Part shown: piece by piece, positions 1,696 through 39,051 of the stretch
How the letters are laid out: each line of letters opens with the position of its first letter
How positions within the stretch are numbered: the first letter of the stretch is position 1
DNA from: Leuconostoc palmae
GTDB lineage: Bacteria; Bacillota; Bacilli; Lactobacillales; Lactobacillaceae
DNA: 54,216 bases
Assembly (NCBI RefSeq): GCF_019656075.1
Contig: NZ_BPKZ01000010.1
Coordinates: forward strand, 1-54,216
Direction: 5' to 3'
Notes under the pieces: generated by a model
What the model saw: only the letters and a program-made list of their open reading frames with translations
The model's database searches: none
Told to the model about the DNA's origin: nothing
Translations under genes and position numbers: made by a program

Positions 1696-2913
1696 TTACT
1701 TTTCAGAGATAGCAGCAATACCAGGCAATTCCTTACCTTCTAAGTATTCTAGCGAAGCACCCCCACCCGTTGAGATGTGCGATAGCTTGTCGGCAACACC
1801 TAATTGTTGTACAGCAGCGGTTGAATCCCCACCACCAACAATTGTTGTGCCACCATTTTCAGTAACAGTTACTAATTCTTCACCAATAGCCAAAGTCCCC
1901 TTAGCAAAGTTAGGCATTTCAAACACACCCATTGGACCATTCCAAACAACAGTCTTTGCATCGGCTAATGTGTCTTGTAGCAACTGAACTGACTTAGGTC
2001 CAATATCAAGACCCATATAACCATCAGGAATACCAGCTTCAGCATCAACAACTTCAGTTTTAGCATCATTTGAGAAAGCATCAGCTGCGATTGAATCGAT
2101 TGGCAAAACTAGCTTATCACCAGCTTCAGCCATCAATTCTTTAGCCAGTTCAACTTTATCAGCTTCAAACAATGAGTTCCCAATCTTGTTACCTTTAGCT
2201 GCATCAAAAGTATACGCCATACCACCACCAACGATAACTTTATCAGCTTTGGCTAGTAGTGACTTAACAATTTCAATCTTATCAGAAACTTTAGCCCCAC
2301 CAATGATAGCAACGAAAGGACGCACTGGATTAGCCACAGCATCACCCAAGAATTTGATTTCCTTTTCCATCAAGAATCCAGCGGCAGCCTTAGAAACATT
2401 AGCTGAAATACCTACGTTTGAAGCATGGGCACGATGTGCTGTCCCAAATGCATCGTTAATAAACAAATCATCACCCAATGAGGCCCAATACTTACCTAAT
2501 TCAGGATTATTCTTTGATTCATTTTTAACTTCTTCGCCGTTTACAACATCTTCAAAACGAGTGTTTTCAACCATCAACACTTCACCATCTTGCAAAGCAT
2601 TAACGGCAGCTTCTAATTCAGCACCTCGTGTTTGTGGTACAAACTTAACTTCTTTACCCAACAACTCACCTAAGCGTGTCGCAACTGGTGCCAATGATAA
2701 TTCTTTCTTATCATCTTCTGACTTGATACGACCCAAGTGTGAGAATAAAATTGCACGTCCGTTATTTTCAAGAACATACTTGATAGTTGGCAAAGCTGCC
2801 ACAATACGGTTATCGTTACCGATAACACCTGCCTTGATAGGCACGTTGAAGTCAACGCGCATCAATACTTTCTTACCTGAAAGTTCCAAATCTGAAACAG
2901 TCAATTTAGCCAT
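1696..2913 (-). CDS. pgk: Phosphoglycerate kinase
   Basis: Glycolytic kinase that converts 1,3-bisphosphoglycerate and ADP to 3-phosphoglycerate and ATP. The substrate-binding VDFNVP segment near residue 19, the SHLGR loop, the GGAKVSDKI segment and the C-terminal GGGDSTAAV nucleotide loop are all present. The start at 2913 (MAKLTV) is chosen because GGAGG sits 6 nt upstream. An ATG at 2925 would overlap that ribosome site. This gives 405 residues, typical for the family. It is transcribed alone, with its own terminator downstream. Confidence 0.97.
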
Positions 2914-2993
2914 GATAGCCTCCATTTTTTTAGTATTACATGTCCATTATAAAACAAAATTAGCTACTTGTGTGATGATATGTGAACTATTAA

Positions 2994-3827
2994 TCAAATC
3001 ATTGTTATATGATGTGTTTTATGATTTAAGCCACTCATTTCTAACAAATCATAATCTTTTGTTGTTACCCGAATTTCAACAAAGTATTTTTTAGATTGAG
3101 ATAATAGCTGTTTAATGATTGGTTTAATCTCTCCATGCTCGTCAGTAATTCCATCAACAAAGGTAATGATAGTATTGTTGGGTAGCAACGTTAAAAGATT
3201 ATTAATTCTTGTCAAATTAAACATATTATTAGTTACACGATGTAATACATCAGCTACATAGTGCTCAAAGGATTCATATTTATCATTGAATGCATAAACA
3301 AAATCACGTTGACTTTCATTGTAAAAGTCAGTTACCTTACGATCACCATACCCAAAATAATACTCAGTAACAAATAGCTTGTTATCATTAAAGTATTGCA
3401 CAGCAAATAAATGACCATCACGTTGATAAATCGATTTATAGTCAATATCACCGCTACTAGTCAACCAAGTCACTGATTGAACAATTCTCGGAGAACCATT
3501 AAAACAACGAATTTTTGCAATTACGCGTCCAAAACTCACTACATATTTCGATCCATCTTTATCCATTATAAATTTGGCGTTGTTAGGCACAGGAAGATCA
3601 GTCCAAAAAATGCCTAAGTGCACTTTTAATTCACATAAATACTGTTGCGAATAAACATCGAATACTTTATTTAAAGGTAACCCTAATTTTTCCGCTAAAA
3701 AACTAGCATCTTCATGTGGTGTTGTCACCCAAAGTTCTTCACTTTGCCCAGACTTTACACGTGCGATTTGCCACGCAACATCGTATAACTGAGCATCAAC
3801 TAATGACTTAATAATTTCTATTGTCAT
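2994..3827 (-). CDS. Partner protein of the upstream glycosyltransferase (GtfB-like, short)
   Basis: A 277-residue soluble protein with no signal peptide or membrane segment. Its position directly behind a GT4 glycosyltransferase gene, and its general look, resemble the GtfB/accessory partner of GtfA-TarM-type enzymes. It is much shorter than classical GtfB proteins (about 440 residues), so the name is tentative. The start at 3827 overlaps the TGA of the upstream gene in an ATGA, with GGTGG upstream, indicating translational coupling. I infer that it stabilises or directs the glycosyltransferase, modifying teichoic acid or a surface protein. I see no catalytic motif of its own. Confidence 0.55.
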   Translation of the reverse strand: MTIEIIKSLVDAQLYDVAWQIARVKSGQSEELWVTTPHEDASFLAEKLGLPLNKVFDVYSQQYLCELKVHLGIFWTDLPVPNNAKFIMDKDGSKYVVSFGRVIAKIRCFNGSPRIVQSVTWLTSSGDIDYKSIYQRDGHLFAVQYFNDNKLFVTEYYFGYGDRKVTDFYNESQRDFVYAFNDKYESFEHYVADVLHRVTNNMFNLTRINNLLTLLPNNTIITFVDGITDEHGEIKPIIKQLLSQSKKYFVEIRVTTKDYDLLEMSGLNHKTHHITMI

Positions 3828-33186: not shown

Positions 33187-33525
33187 TTATAGTAGATTCC
33201 CGAATTGCATGCCAATCCAGAAAAATAAAAAACCACTTAAAATTTGAACTAATAAATAAATGCTCTGTTTAATCAAATGATACTCTGAGCTTTGTGTCAT
33301 CATCGTACTAAATGTCGTAAAACTACCAATTAACCCTATGCTAAACACACCATTCATTGCATGTAACTGATGCAAAGCCAAGAGCATCCCCATTAAAAAA
33401 GAACCACAAACATTAATCAACCAGACTGCTGTCAGATATTGGTTGTTAAATTTCCAGTAACTGATGATGGCATATCTTACTAGGGTTGCTATAGCTGATA
33501 GCACAAAAACACTGACTATAATCAT
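33187..33525 (-). CDS. crcB: Fluoride channel FluC/CrcB, second subunit
   Basis: A 112-residue, four-helix membrane protein. It has the NVCGSFLMGMLLAL-like block (NVCGSFLMG near residue 39) and GLIGSFTTFSTMM, the Phe/Thr fluoride-path motif. The ATG overlaps the first subunit's stop (ATGA). Two tandem FluC genes usually give a heterodimeric fluoride exporter. Confidence 0.92.
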   Translation of the reverse strand: MIIVSVFVLSAIATLVRYAIISYWKFNNQYLTAVWLINVCGSFLMGMLLALHQLHAMNGVFSIGLIGSFTTFSTMMTQSSEYHLIKQSIYLLVQILSGFLFFWIGMQFGNLL

Positions 33526-33926
33526 TTCGCATACCTATTCCTATACAAGTAACGTCCCAAATTGTGTCCGCACTTAACCACTAATATCCCACCAATAATT
33601 GTAACCATAAGATATGGAAACGCATTCATTGGTCTACATAATTGTATCTCGTAAAATTCAAGCATCATGGTACTGAAAGTTGTGAAACCACCAATAACGC
33701 CGGTTCCTAAAAATGATTTCAACAGTATGGTTCTTTGACTGGTATAAGGTAGAAATGTACCCAAAAAAGCTAATAAAAATGCCCCTGTTAAATTAATCCC
33801 CACCGTTGTTATCGGCCAGTGCCCAACAACAGGCATTAATCCCAAAGTAAATCGTAAACTTCCACCAATACCACCACCTAGCATCACCAGATATAATTCG
33901 ATTATTTTGTTTCTCTCACTTTGCAT
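33522..33926 (-). CDS. crcB: Fluoride channel FluC/CrcB, first subunit
   Basis: A 134-residue, four-helix membrane protein. The blocks are LGGGIGGSLRFTLG near residue 15, GINLTGAFLLAFLGT and GTGVIGGFTTFSTMMLEF. The start at 33926 is supported by a good promoter whose -10 ends 7 nt upstream. There is no Shine-Dalgarno, so the transcript is probably leaderless, which also leaves no room for a fluoride riboswitch. It is followed in an ATGA overlap by the second subunit. Confidence 0.9.
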   Translation of the reverse strand: MQSERNKIIELYLVMLGGGIGGSLRFTLGLMPVVGHWPITTVGINLTGAFLLAFLGTFLPYTSQRTILLKSFLGTGVIGGFTTFSTMMLEFYEIQLCRPMNAFPYLMVTIIGGILVVKCGHNLGRYLYRNRYAK

Positions 33927-33933
33927 AAGTATT

Positions 33934-33962
33934 ATTTTAGCAATTTTAATATTTATTAGCAA
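33934..33962 (-). promoter_or_regulatory. Promoter of the fluoride channel operon (leaderless arrangement)
   Basis: -35 TTGCTA (33957-33962), 17-bp spacer, -10 TAAAAT (33934-33939), then 7 nt to the ATG. Confidence 0.65.
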
Positions 33963-33984
33963 AATTATCAATCGAATTCGTATA

Positions 33985-35529: not shown

Positions 35530-36072
35530 TTTATTTTTGGGGGTCATTGTTTACAACCACCAGACAAATTCCTCAATCCAAATGATTCAATTATTTCTGG
35601 AAGTACGACAACCACTACGCCTACTAAGCCTGTTCTTAAATTTGCTAATGTGCCTACTAACTTGCCCTTTAACACGGTTAGTCTTGGTACTAGTCAGGGT
35701 GGCTATGTTACCGCAACGCGCCAAGATCCCAACTGGGGAATGGACATTTATGACAATCGAAATAATGGTAAAGGCGGTAACTGGTCTGTTAGCGCCAATC
35801 TTGTTTCTGATAAGATGACAGGCAATAATGGTCACACATTGACTACACCAATTATTTTTAAAGACGCCAATTCAACATCGAGTGTTTTAAGTACAAAAGC
35901 ACCCGTAACTATTTTTTCTAACTACTCTATCTCTTCTAATTCTAATTATATTAGACATGTTCAATTTAATGACCCTAATACAGGTCTGCTTATTCGTGCA
36001 CTTACTTCGGAGATTTATACTAATGAAAATTATTCAGGAATTATTAACTTCACGTTGAATAATGTACCTTAA
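35530..36072 (+). pseudogene. 5'-truncated WxL-domain surface protein
   Basis: The frame is open from 35530 but has no signal peptide and no credible start; recognisable sequence begins about 35551. It carries a proline/threonine linker, then a WxL cell-wall-binding domain. FANVPTNLPFNTV and WGMDIYDNR are present, followed by GNWSVSANLV and the final NYSGIINFTLNNVP, the usual closing beta strand. The second WxL motif has lost its Trp (INFTL instead of the usual TWTL). Upstream sequence gives no start in frame. I read this as the remnant of a small secreted WxL protein that lost its 5' end. No partner DUF916 gene is nearby. Confidence 0.75.
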
Positions 36073-36113: not shown

Positions 36114-36142
36114 TTGACAACTCATCAAATTCTTAGTATTCT
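36114..36142 (+). promoter_or_regulatory. Promoter of the trpXYZ operon
   Basis: A perfect -35 TTGACA (36114-36119), a 17-bp spacer and -10 TATTCT (36137-36142). Transcription should start near 36149, ahead of the leader peptide. Confidence 0.8.
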
Positions 36143-36170
36143 TATCTTACAGTCAACTTGGAGAAAAGTT

Positions 36171-36218
36171 ATGCAAAATACACTATTACAATTGAATAAT
36201 GCCTGGTGGCGTCGGTAA
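36171..36218 (+). CDS. Tryptophan leader peptide
   Basis: A 15-residue ORF, MQNTLLQLNNAWWRR, with GGAGA 6-7 nt upstream. Tandem UGG codons at 36204-36209 are followed by two Arg codons and UAA, all just before a series of inverted repeats and a terminator. This is the layout of a trp-type attenuation leader. Tryptophan is otherwise rare, so two adjacent UGG codons in a 15-codon ORF in front of a tryptophan transporter are unlikely by chance. Confidence 0.85.
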   Translation: MQNTLLQLNNAWWRR

Positions 36219-36378
36219 TCAGCTTTTCATTTTGATGGATAAAGCTGATGTTTAAAACATTTGTTTTATCCATACCGACGTATTTTGTCTAGCACCTCAG
36301 TCTGTATGGAAATAAGCCATGCAGACTTTTCTTTTGACCTTGGAGAGCACTGTATGGCTGTCTAAGGTCAATTTTTTT
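36210..36378 (+). promoter_or_regulatory. Transcription attenuator of trpXYZ
   Basis: Competing helices, all read from the sequence. Outer stem: 36210-36217 with 36273-36280 (CGTCGGTA/TACCGACG). Hairpin A: 36218-36226 with 36241-36249. Hairpin B: 36235-36243 with 36265-36273. Helix 2:3: 36269-36279 with 36300-36310 (one mismatch). Helix 3:4: 36299-36309 with 36317-36327. Helix 4:5: 36315-36324 with 36350-36359. Terminator: 36334-36348 with 36357-36371, then T7. A ribosome stalled at the UGG pair covers the outer stem but leaves hairpin A. That frees segment 2 to pair with 3 and segment 4 to pair with 5, which breaks the terminator. A ribosome at the stop codon blocks A, lets B form and restores termination. 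Confidence 0.8.
36334..36378 (+). terminator. Regulated terminator upstream of trpX
   Basis: 15-nt arms beginning TTGACCTT and ending AAGGTCAA (one internal mismatch, one G-U) with an 8-nt loop, then T7. It sits between the leader peptide and trpX, so it can only be regulatory. Confidence 0.9.
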
Positions 36379-36399
36379 GAAAAACGGGAGAATTTTATT

Positions 36400-37407
36400 A
36401 TGAATAAACGCCTTTTAGCAGTTATTGCAGTTATTGTTGCTTTCTTATGTGTCGCATTTTTCCTCACCAGTAAACCAACTAATAGTCAGGAAAACAAGAA
36501 AAACTATGTACCAACTGTTGGTATTCTACAGCTAGTGACTCACCCTGCATTAGATGAAATACATCGGGGAATTATTTCCGGATTAAAGTCACAGGGATAT
36601 TCTGGTGATAAAATCAAGATAGATTACCAAAATGCACAAGCTAATCAAGCTAATCTCAAAACAATGTCACAAAAATTTGCGAATGAAAACGCCGATTTAA
36701 CTATTGGTATTGCAACACCAGCAGCATTATCGTTAGCAAAAACAGCATCTGGTAATTCACCCGTTATCTTAGCAGGCATTACTGACCCAGCAGGATCTGG
36801 TTTAGTCAAAACAACACAACGCCCTGGTAACAACGTAACAGGTACTTCTGGCGATTCTCCACTTGAACAACATCTTTCAGTTATCAAAAAAGTGGTCCCA
36901 AATGCTAAAAAGTTAGGCATTATTTACACAACTTCAGACCACGGTGGTGAGTATAATGCCAAAAACATGGAAAAAATTGCCCAAGCAGCTGGTTACGATG
37001 TTAAGATGTTTACAATTTCTTCGACTAACGATATGCAACAAGTTGCTGAAACAATGGCTAATCAAGTTGACGTTGTTTATGCCCCTCAAGACAACGGTGT
37101 TGCCAGCTCTATGAAAACACTAGTTAATGTGACAAATAGTAATAAGATTCCTGTCATTCCTGCTGTGGATACTATGGTTAAAGATGGTGGATTAGCCACA
37201 GTTTCAGTTAGTCAATACGACTTGGGTTATCAAGCCGGTGTTATGGCTGCTAAAGTATTAAAAGGTAAAGATACCGCAACATATCCGGTAAAAACAATTA
37301 CTGAAGGTAAGATGGTTGTCAATTTAAAACAAGCAAAGCTACTAGGTATTCCATTACCTGATAGTATCATTGCCGAAGCAAAAGCCAAGGGAGAAGTCTT
37401 CAAATGA
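36400..37407 (+). CDS. trpX: Tryptophan ABC transporter substrate-binding protein
   Basis: A 335-residue extracytoplasmic binding protein of the TrpX/DUF534 ABC family. A hydrophobic N-terminal anchor (residues 5-23) lacks a lipobox Cys. The domain begins TVGILQLVTHPALDEIHRGI near residue 42, followed by IGIATPAALSLA, VILAGITDPAGSGLV (about 125) and VYAPQDNGVASSM (about 225). The start at 36400 has GGGAG upstream; the longer open frame from 36319 runs through the terminator and is not used. It opens a trpX-Y-Z operon. Tryptophan as substrate is inferred from the family and from the leader peptide. Confidence 0.88.
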   Translation: MNKRLLAVIAVIVAFLCVAFFLTSKPTNSQENKKNYVPTVGILQLVTHPALDEIHRGIISGLKSQGYSGDKIKIDYQNAQANQANLKTMSQKFANENADLTIGIATPAALSLAKTASGNSPVILAGITDPAGSGLVKTTQRPGNNVTGTSGDSPLEQHLSVIKKVVPNAKKLGIIYTTSDHGGEYNAKNMEKIAQAAGYDVKMFTISSTNDMQQVAETMANQVDVVYAPQDNGVASSMKTLVNVTNSNKIPVIPAVDTMVKDGGLATVSVSQYDLGYQAGVMAAKVLKGKDTATYPVKTITEGKMVVNLKQAKLLGIPLPDSIIAEAKAKGEVFK

Positions 37408-38303
37408 GTATAATTGTATCAAGTATTGGTCAAGGACTTTTATGGGCAGTTTTAGGCGTCGCGCTGTTTCTAACATTTAGAATTCTAAATTTCCCAGATA
37501 TGACAGTTGAAGGTTCGTTTCCATTAGGTGCAGCTACTGCTGTTAGTCTAATAGCACACGGATTCAATCCTTACTTAGCAACCCTCATCGCTTTTGTTAT
37601 TGGAACAATTGCAGGATTAGCCACAGGATTACTCTACACCAAAGGACGTATTCCTATCTTATTAGCTGGAATTTTAGTCATGACTGCTTCATTGTCAATT
37701 AACTTACGTATTATGGGATCCGCAAATATCTCACTGTTAAATCAAAAGTCTGTTTTTTCAGCTCATATACTACAACATTTGCCAAAATATTTTGACTCTG
37801 TCTTTGTTGGTTTGATAATTATCACACTTATCACACTAGCGCTTATCTTTTTCTTACAAACTGATCTAGGTCAAGCATTTATTGCAACAGGCGATAACGC
37901 AACTATGGCACAGTCAATTGGTATTAAAACTGACCGTATGACAATTATGGGTCTTATGTTATCAAATGGCTTAATTGCTTTTGGTGGTGCTATTATAGCT
38001 CAAAATAATGGTTATGCTGACATCAACATGGGTATTGGTATTATTGTTATCGCATTAGCATCGATTATTATAGGCGAAGTTATTTTTGGTGATTTATCCC
38101 TCAATGAACGCCTCGTTGCTGTTATAGTAGGCTCAATCTTGTATCGTCTTGTCCTTCTTGCTGTGCTACAGCTTGGCTTTTCAACCAATGATTTAAATCT
38201 CATTTCAGCTGTTGTTCTAGCCATTGCTATGATGTTGCCAAGATTACGACATGCCCTTAAACTCGATTCATTGATTAAAAAAGGAGTTAGCACCCATGAG
38301 TAA
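37404..38303 (+). CDS. trpY: Tryptophan ABC transporter permease
   Basis: A 299-residue permease of the branched-chain/ribose-type fold with about eight membrane segments. It opens with QGLLWAVLGVALFLTFRILNFPDMTVEGSFPLGAA, a pattern shared by TrpY proteins. A cytosolic coupling region, TGDNATMAQSIGI, lies near residue 164. The ATG overlaps the trpX stop (ATGA), indicating tight coupling. Confidence 0.87.
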   Translation: MSIIVSSIGQGLLWAVLGVALFLTFRILNFPDMTVEGSFPLGAATAVSLIAHGFNPYLATLIAFVIGTIAGLATGLLYTKGRIPILLAGILVMTASLSINLRIMGSANISLLNQKSVFSAHILQHLPKYFDSVFVGLIIITLITLALIFFLQTDLGQAFIATGDNATMAQSIGIKTDRMTIMGLMLSNGLIAFGGAIIAQNNGYADINMGIGIIVIALASIIIGEVIFGDLSLNERLVAVIVGSILYRLVLLAVLQLGFSTNDLNLISAVVLAIAMMLPRLRHALKLDSLIKKGVSTHE

Positions 38304-39051
38304 TCCGGTTTTTTCTCTCAAAAATATCGTTGTCACTGTTGGTGATGGTGTCAAGATATTAGATAACTTAAATCTTGACATTTACGATGGCGATTTCATC
38401 ACAATACTTGGCACAAATGGTGCTGGAAAATCAACACTATTTAACACTATTGCAGGCAACCTAAAAATTACATTGGGTCAACTGGAACATCATGGTAAAA
38501 ACATTACTAACTCTAGTGCGGTGTCTCGAACAAACTATATTGCCCGTGTCTTTCAAGATCCAAAAATGGGTACTGCCCCGCGTATGACTGTTGCTGAAAA
38601 TCTATTACTTTCTGAAAAACGTGGCAAAAAACGATCACTAAGAAACCGTGGTTTAACTAAGGAAAAGTTAGCTGATTACGCAAAAATTACTAAAGTGATG
38701 GGTAATAATCTCAATACAAGATTACAGACTGCTACTGGTAATTTGTCTGGCGGACAACGTCAAGCTTTAAGCTTTTTAATGGCAACACGCGTCAAGCCTG
38801 AGCTATTACTGTTGGATGAGCATACTGCGGCACTTGATCCTAAAACATCAGAACATCTTATGATCGCTACTAACGAACAGGTTACACAAAATAACTTAAC
38901 AGCTATGATGATCACTCATAACTTAGCAGATGCTTTAAAATATGGTAATCGTTTGATTATTCTAAATGCTGGTAAAGTTGTCTTGGATGTTAACGGAACA
39001 GCAAAATCCGCACTTACTGAAGGAGATATTTTGAAATACTTCATTGCTTAA
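38296..39051 (+). CDS. trpZ: Tryptophan ABC transporter ATP-binding protein
   Basis: A 251-residue ABC ATPase. Walker A is LGTNGAGKSTLF near residue 36. The Q-loop is ARVFQDPKMGT, the signature NLSGGQRQALSFLMA, Walker B LLLLDEHTAALD (with His after DE, a known TrpZ-type variant of DEP), and the switch is MMITHNL. It starts 8 nt inside trpY, with AAGGAG upstream. It is the last gene before a bidirectional terminator. Confidence 0.9.
   Translation: MSNPVFSLKNIVVTVGDGVKILDNLNLDIYDGDFITILGTNGAGKSTLFNTIAGNLKITLGQLEHHGKNITNSSAVSRTNYIARVFQDPKMGTAPRMTVAENLLLSEKRGKKRSLRNRGLTKEKLADYAKITKVMGNNLNTRLQTATGNLSGGQRQALSFLMATRVKPELLLLDEHTAALDPKTSEHLMIATNEQVTQNNLTAMMITHNLADALKYGNRLIILNAGKVVLDVNGTAKSALTEGDILKYFIA

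Follow-up and report, generated by a model that had tools for sequence, protein, structure and literature searches.

T-box elements and TRAP are the textbook answers to how trp genes are controlled in lactic acid bacteria. Leader-peptide attenuation is a classical and known class of mechanism, and in the attenuator of the E. coli trp operon (RF00513, Trp_leader) a leader ORF with Trp codons is combined with an antiterminator that competes with an intrinsic terminator. Within the Firmicutes the accepted precedent for leader-peptide attenuation lies in the His leaders, reported in the accessible portions of two papers as His leader peptides in the B. cereus group, Peptostreptococcaceae and Erysipelotrichales (PMC9413887) and as hisZ/hisS leaders in bacilli (PMC2965389); these concern another amino acid and other genes, and the same portions contain no link to the trpB motif. 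The trpXYZ operon of Streptococcus suis is under T-box control, according to the accessible text of PMC9382623. The trpB motif itself (RF04312, SRC-39-1) is described in the accessible part of Narunsky et al. 2024 (PMC11109978) as having more than 900 representatives, Fusobacteria members among those mentioned, and an uncharacterised ABC transporter as its commonest target. Searches of open PMC text returned no report of an upstream ORF (uORF) for the trpB motif and none of a Trp leader of Leuconostoc trpXYZ.

The locus described here lies in a stretch of 54,216 nucleotides from Leuconostoc palmae (the window), taken from a genome of 1.39 Mb in 28 contigs that is 99.6% complete. Upstream of a tryptophan transporter operon the window holds a leader, at 36114-36399, in which a Shine-Dalgarno (SD) sequence with a specifier-codon ORF, mutually exclusive antiterminator and terminator structures, and a target that handles Trp are found together. 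We consider it very likely that this leader is a tryptophan-specific, ribosome-mediated leader-peptide attenuator of trpXYZ, related to RF04312, which by the same reasoning would be an attenuator too. The features are as follows.

36114 to 36142, forward strand: promoter, with -35 TTGACA at 36114-36119, a 17-nt spacer and -10 TATTCT at 36137-36142
36160 to 36163, forward strand: Shine-Dalgarno GGAG of the leader ORF
36171 to 36218, forward strand: leader ORF of 15 codons, MQNTLLQLNNAWWRR-stop, ending AWWRR-stop
36210 to 36217, forward strand: segment 1, located on the Arg codons and the stop codon, pairing with 36273-36280 of segment 2
36218 to 36249, forward strand: hairpin A, 36218-36226 with 36241-36249
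36236 to 36272, forward strand: hairpin B, 36236-36243 with 36265-36272, which excludes A and overlaps segment 2
36269 to 36280, forward strand: segment 2, common to 1:2, B and 2:3
36269 to 36279 with 36300 to 36310, forward strand: antiterminator 2:3, with one mismatch
36299 to 36335, forward strand: terminator 1, hairpin 3:4 (36299-36309 with 36317-36327) and U tract 36328-36335
36315 to 36359, forward strand: second antiterminator 4:5, 36315-36324 with 36350-36359
36334 to 36378, forward strand: terminator 2, hairpin 5:6 (36334-36341 with 36364-36371) and U tract 36372-36378 (seven T)
36400 to 37407, forward strand: trpX, tryptophan ABC transporter substrate-binding protein (NF041285 equivalog, relative of PDB 3lft)
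37404 to 38303, forward strand: permease in the same operon, trpY position (PF02653)
38296 to 39051, forward strand: ATP-binding protein in the same operon, trpZ position (PF00005)

The assignment of the target as trpXYZ, made by a first-pass annotation from the letters alone, is borne out by the TrpX equivalog (432.7 bits against a cut-off of 390) and by the permease and ATPase that follow it. A search of the source genome gave no match to trpB (tryptophan synthase beta), so import is probably its sole source of Trp; by gene content, Trp auxotrophy with dependence on uptake is probable. A plasmid search gave no match. Upstream of the leader, 35537-36072 contains ORF fragments, one of which (35650-36069) is without a Pfam or NCBIfam match, and two adjoining small membrane ORFs on the reverse strand at 33187-33971 resemble, by eye, paired CrcB/FluC fluoride channels.

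The perfect -35, the well-initiated ORF of 15 codons and the tandem UGG codons that the first-pass annotation had pointed out are all in the sequence. A promoter scan of the window found 2 sites where 2.7 are expected, which is not above chance, though all 19 genus genomes keep TTGACA together with the greater part of the -10 region. Within the leader ORF the codons TGG TGG occupy 36204-36209, the Arg codons 36210-36215 and the stop 36216-36218; the tryptophan codons lie outside the relay helices, though a small hairpin over them is possible. Downstream, each segment has alternative partners, segment 2 pairing with 1, within B or with 3, segment 3 with 2 or 4, and segment 4 with 3 or 5, while the hairpin of terminator 5:6 encloses segment 5. 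The leader had been proposed to hold a chain of inverted repeats ending in a U-tailed terminator: every pairing of that chain is present, and 3:4 is a terminator candidate as well. Since 3:4 and 5:6 are each followed by a U tract, there are two terminator candidates in tandem. A terminator scan returned one site (0.1 expected), which is hairpin 3:4; hairpin 5:6 was missed by this simple scan, its loop being above the size allowed there. The leader fold has z = -6.89, none of 200 shuffles being as stable, and contains 7 stems of at least 8 bp against a shuffle mean of 0.68. A strict search for chains without mismatches gave a chain length of 2 for the leader, equalled by 8 of 500 shuffles and by 10 window tiles, and is uninformative because 2:3 has a mismatch.

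The leader is present in 19/19 Leuconostoc genomes, the source genome counted, all of which keep WW, RR and the stop as well as conserved pairing segments. With 15 leaders from four other genera of the family these make 34 leaders of the window type, and in all 34 the uORF is exactly 15 codons long, opens with ATG behind an SD and contains WW; R14 is kept in 34/34 and R15 in 32/34, and several codons 5' of W12 vary freely. Pairing was followed in an alignment of 24 leaders (23 distinct), the ten leaders of genus g2 being aligned apart and left uncounted. The proportion of cells paired was 96.6% for the 1:2 helix, in which 2 pairs are changed on both sides, 94.6% for hairpin A, 94.7% for 2:3, 94.4% for 3:4, 89.5% for 4:5, with 4 of its 10 pairs changed on both sides, and 91.2% for 5:6. 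In hairpin B the outer stem reached 86.9% and the inner stem merely 43.0%. Taken as sets over the 24 leaders, the terminator helices have 85.9% of cells paired against 34-45% when slid, and the antiterminator helices 92.8% against 27-42%.

An alignment of relatives had been proposed as a check in the first-pass annotation, and covariation was observed in both structures. Against shuffles that do not correct for the relatedness of the sequences, pairs changed on both sides number 7 in the terminator set (shuffle mean 3.4, reached by 4/500) and 6 in the antiterminator set (mean 3.1, reached by 7/500), and cells changed on both sides number 16 (mean 4.4) and 18 (mean 4.5) respectively, neither value being reached by any of 500 shuffles. 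The number of pair types is unexceptional, 60/500 shuffles being as high for the terminator set and 141/500 for the antiterminator set. Both of the mutually exclusive structures thus seem to have been kept, which is what a switch needs. In the leaders of genus g2 (L068, L071-L073, L075-L077, L079, L081, L082) the second terminator appears by eye to be lost, and a potential pairing partner of segment 4 is still there. Two genomes of the genus (L021, L022) gave a second weak match to the leader, 30 bases long, which was rejected; in L021 it lies, by eye, within a GntR-type regulator.

From this anatomy we infer stalling, a relay, termination and a cellular response to tryptophan along the following lines. 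When charged tRNA-Trp is low, the ribosome would stall at UGG 12/13 and cover segment 1, leaving hairpin A free to form and to disrupt hairpin B. With B broken, segment 2 would be free to capture segment 3 (antiterminator 1), and segment 4, unclaimed, would take segment 5 (antiterminator 2), so that both terminators would be prevented and transcription would run on into trpXYZ. With ample Trp the ribosome would get to the stop codon and cover the 5' arm of A; with A blocked, B would form and hold segment 2, and the terminators 3:4 and 5:6 would follow. Without translation, 1:2 and B would form together and termination would again be expected. The model shares with the E. coli trp attenuator the Trp-codon leader ORF, the stall, stop and no-translation logic, and the opposition of antiterminator and intrinsic terminator, and differs from it in having tandem terminators and a transporter as target. 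Segment 2 lies about 40 nt past the assumed edge of a ribosome at the stop, and therefore the rival hairpins A and B are added to the scheme, relaying the signal.

Masked folding, another check put forward in the first-pass annotation, was carried out on growing transcripts with the ribosome-covered stretch held unpaired, the edge of the ribosome being assumed 12 nt beyond the first base of the A-site codon. When segment 3 has just emerged, the probability of 2:3 is 0.98 with the ribosome at W12 and 0.88 at W13, 0.20 at the stop and 0.00 without a ribosome. At the same point hairpin A reaches 0.90 (W12) and 0.61 (W13) in the stalled states and at most 0.08 in the others, and hairpin B 0.94 at the stop and 0.86 without a ribosome. 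In these equilibrium models the position of the ribosome therefore selects the structure as segment 3 emerges. Across the 34 leaders, upstream pairing of segment 3 averaged 0.78 stalled, 0.49 at the stop and 0.45 without a ribosome, against 0.63 stalled and 0.63 at the stop in shuffles. This pairing shifted as predicted by over 0.1 in 25/34 leaders, the opposite way in 1/34 (L035) and neither way in 8/34 (L019, L020, L034, L068, L076, L077, L081, L082).

The proposed three-state relay thus agrees with the order of 2:3 pairing, stall above stop above no ribosome, and some of its later steps run counter to equilibrium folding. With just segment 2 out, B outcompetes A even in the stalled state (0.96-0.99), and once segment 4 is out equilibrium favours B with 3:4 (0.99) in the stalled state. 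With segment 5 out, 4:5 has a probability of 0.89 at W12, 0.14 at W13 and 0.57-0.59 at the stop; in this modelling the values for W13 and the stop contradict a simple view of the second step, which is the least secure part of the model. At full length every ribosome state ends in both terminators, with 5:6 at 0.95-0.96, and antitermination must for that reason be kinetic, as the decision is accepted to be in classical attenuators. The same full-length result is what would be expected if the leader were merely a constitutive double terminator working at a fixed rate, with the ORF as a relic. Compensated, mutually exclusive pairings and WW in every one of the 34 leaders are unexpected for a passive terminator, and we regard that explanation as quite improbable.

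Control by a T-box or TRAP, as in other Firmicutes trp genes, would have the precedent of S. suis, in which, according to the accessible text of PMC9382623, the same operon responds to the same signal, uncharged tRNA-Trp, and the T-box, unlike the Leuconostoc leader, senses tRNA directly without translation. The source genome does contain 16 T-box matches, 4 of them above the cut-off. None of the 16 is on this contig, however, and no T-box was found in the window at the Rfam threshold or in L002 at E <= 5. An Rfam scan of the window gave no existing family, RF00513 Trp_leader and T-box (RF00230) included, and TRAP had no match in the source genome, the B. subtilis control being positive. Neither system was thus found for this trpX, and the chance that one of them controls it is close to negligible. 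The claim of the first-pass annotation that a leader-peptide attenuator is unusual for the lineage is doubtful, since Trp leader ORFs occur 5' of trpX in many of the sampled Lactobacillales genomes. As far as we found, what is unusual is that such Trp leaders have gone unrecognised just outside a riboswitch-like Rfam model.

Within the family, TrpX was found in 230/251 genomes. The 70 trpX upstream regions that were read are a non-random set: 11 belong to the window's own genus, and the others are for the most part best matches or stand for one genus each. Of the 70, 51 satisfy strict criteria, namely ATG, SD, a Trp close to the end and the outer stem. Among the 19 failures some have a Trp ORF (L048, L049, L065) and in others none was seen. 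Five regions of genus g29 (L047, L050, L051, L052, L066) carry a different Trp leader, AWWWLG or AWWWLV, with simple hairpins 5' of trpX; it may achieve the same control in a different way. In L038 and L040 extra repeat-like sequence separates the leader ORF from trpX by 400-520 nt.

The window leader scores below the gathering score of RF04312 and does not reach that family even at E <= 5, L002 giving no match, and weak sub-threshold RF04312 matches were present in 10 of 36 sources scanned. A covariance model, R1, was made from 25 (of 27 chosen) trpX leaders of family genera outside the window's genus, at least 7 of the 25 rows being RF04312 places. It detects 32 of the 39 sources given, with the window second best (51.3 bits, E 8.5e-14), and misses two g7 leaders of the window type, four of g29 and one of g11. 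On the whole source genome R1 matches this leader alone, and at E < 0.001 it finds 22 of 30 RF04312 loci from other families of the order. Judged from these matches, the window leader is a relative of RF04312 via intermediates and is not filed as a member. Hairpin B corresponds to P1 and 3:4 to the P2 terminator, and the downstream gene is the same; unlike the window leader, the published RF04312 model is without a uORF, hairpin A or second terminator and is labelled a riboswitch candidate.

RF04312 was found in 160 of 295 sampled genomes of the order Lactobacillales at E <= 0.001, in 52 of them above the Rfam cut-off. The 90 RF04312 places read consist of 30 returned loci and 60 picked among the further matches listed. 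The rule applied to them looks for a Trp-containing ORF that has an SD, in a loose definition, and stops between -35 and +10 relative to the motif start; by this rule 30/30 and 56/60 have a Trp uORF, or 86/90 in all. Inspection adds L149 and L172, which have a longer tail, and L183, which has a weak SD, giving 89/90; L180 has neither a Trp uORF nor a trp gene. Controls gave 54 of 4500 dinucleotide shuffles (1.2%) and 1 to 4 at each of six displaced positions, 90 places each, the -400 position being read in the 30 longer loci alone. TrpX lies downstream in 81/90. In L108, L115, L144 and L168 the motif is followed by trpB, the gene downstream in L119 is a near-copy of that of L115, no downstream ORF was found in L104 or L130, and L180 has some other gene. 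In L101 a group II intron maturase (2158-3105) stands 3' of the leader in the expected place of the target gene. One weak RF04312 match in the source genome (L133, 37.7 bits), where no Trp uORF or Trp gene was seen, was taken as chance; L132 and L134 have no such uORF, L134 lying by eye within a coding gene.

Of the 89 Trp uORFs, 57 have WxxW, typically WQNWRR or WQSWRR, 31 have a single W and one has WxW. Masked folding of these leaders gave 0.63 stalled and 0.36 at the stop (shuffles 0.45 and 0.43), with a predicted shift of more than 0.1 in 77/89 against 413/1780 shuffles and the opposite direction in 2/89. Two terminator-like hairpins lie past P1 and 5' of the gene in 66/81, and among these 66 the duplex rises above shuffles (p <= 0.05) in 59 for 2:3 and in just 20 for 4:5. 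These counts suggest that in lactic acid bacteria tryptophan uptake is commonly controlled by leader-peptide attenuation.

It is here that the proposal of a ligand-binding riboswitch with an incidental small ORF has to be weighed, as put forward for the trpB motif by Narunsky et al. 2024, who in the accessible text ranked it a strong riboswitch candidate and themselves left a classic attenuator possible. Two conserved hairpins with an antiterminator, 5' of amino-acid genes, are what such a riboswitch would present. An incidental ORF would hardly be expected to carry Trp codons at a fixed position in nearly all of the 90 places, or to be replaced in another class by His, Phe/Tyr or Leu ORFs (below) that match the target where checked, and a ligand-binding riboswitch is in our judgement very improbable for the window leader. 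The RF04312 riboswitch candidate is probably a modular leader-peptide attenuator instead. No ligand need then exist, with the ribosome as the sensor, which is a testable claim.

A phylum-wide search with RF04312 gave matches in 5/398 genomes, among them L131 (genome G865), which has a Phe-containing ORF and whose class we guess to be Clostridia. RF04312-like matches occur in 32/146 genomes of its family and 20/391 of its class. The family search listed 47 places, 30 of them returned as loci. After L214 and L249-L251 had been dropped as truncated, and with L132 outside the set, there were 44 readable loci, all below the Rfam cut-off (39-58 bits). In 37/44 (37/45 with L132) an ORF with SD and ATG ends just 5' of the motif and carries a run of specifier residues, His in 15, Phe/Tyr in 18 and Leu in 4. 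The rule was written after seeing those ORFs; it is passed by 30/4400 shuffles and, when the position is displaced, by 0-2 of the 44 loci. Of the seven misses, six contain Phe by eye and L244 is without a fitting ORF.

Throughout the loci of this class (L131, L210-L213, L215-L243, L245-L248, L252-L256) the leaders mostly match the downstream gene. A HisS/HisZ-type gene (PF13393) is next in 15/15 cases with a His ORF. The 18 Phe/Tyr ORFs precede 9 sodium symporters, 4 BrnQ-type carriers and 4 TrpXY-type ABC genes, as well as the gene of L256, which has no NCBIfam match and is symporter-like by eye. Three of the 4 Leu ORFs precede sodium symporters, and L253, with no NCBIfam match, has a symporter by eye alone. 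Masked folding gave 0.65 stalled and 0.42 at the stop (shuffles 0.47 and 0.44), with the predicted shift in 26/37 leaders and the opposite in 1/37, against 201/740 shuffles. A working logic common to these and the Lactobacillales elements is well supported; their common descent is unproven, because a covariance search selects look-alikes.

We lean towards RF04312 as a broad modular attenuator class of the phylum, with specifier codons (Trp, His, Phe, Tyr, Leu) swapped along with the target and in competition with T-boxes. A shared scaffold of uORF, P1, antiterminator shoulder, P2 terminator and, often, a second terminator is likewise somewhat favoured. What appears to be new, if upheld, is an A/B hairpin relay that leads to terminators in tandem, the breadth of the class, the reassigning of RF04312 and the modularity of its specifier codons. 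If the modular reading is true, leader codons could predict the substrates of transporters, for example those of L234 and of the BrnQ-family loci L213, L220, L225 and L242. Behind Phe- or Tyr-containing leaders lie TrpX/TrpY-like ABC genes in L234 (405-1394, reverse strand), L229, L238, L254 and L255; the binding protein of L234 scores 316.5 against the TrpX equivalog cut-off of 390, and these transporters may import Phe or Tyr. In L213, L220, L225 and L242 the Tyr/Phe leaders stand before carriers of the BrnQ (branched-chain) family, which puts their annotated substrate in question.
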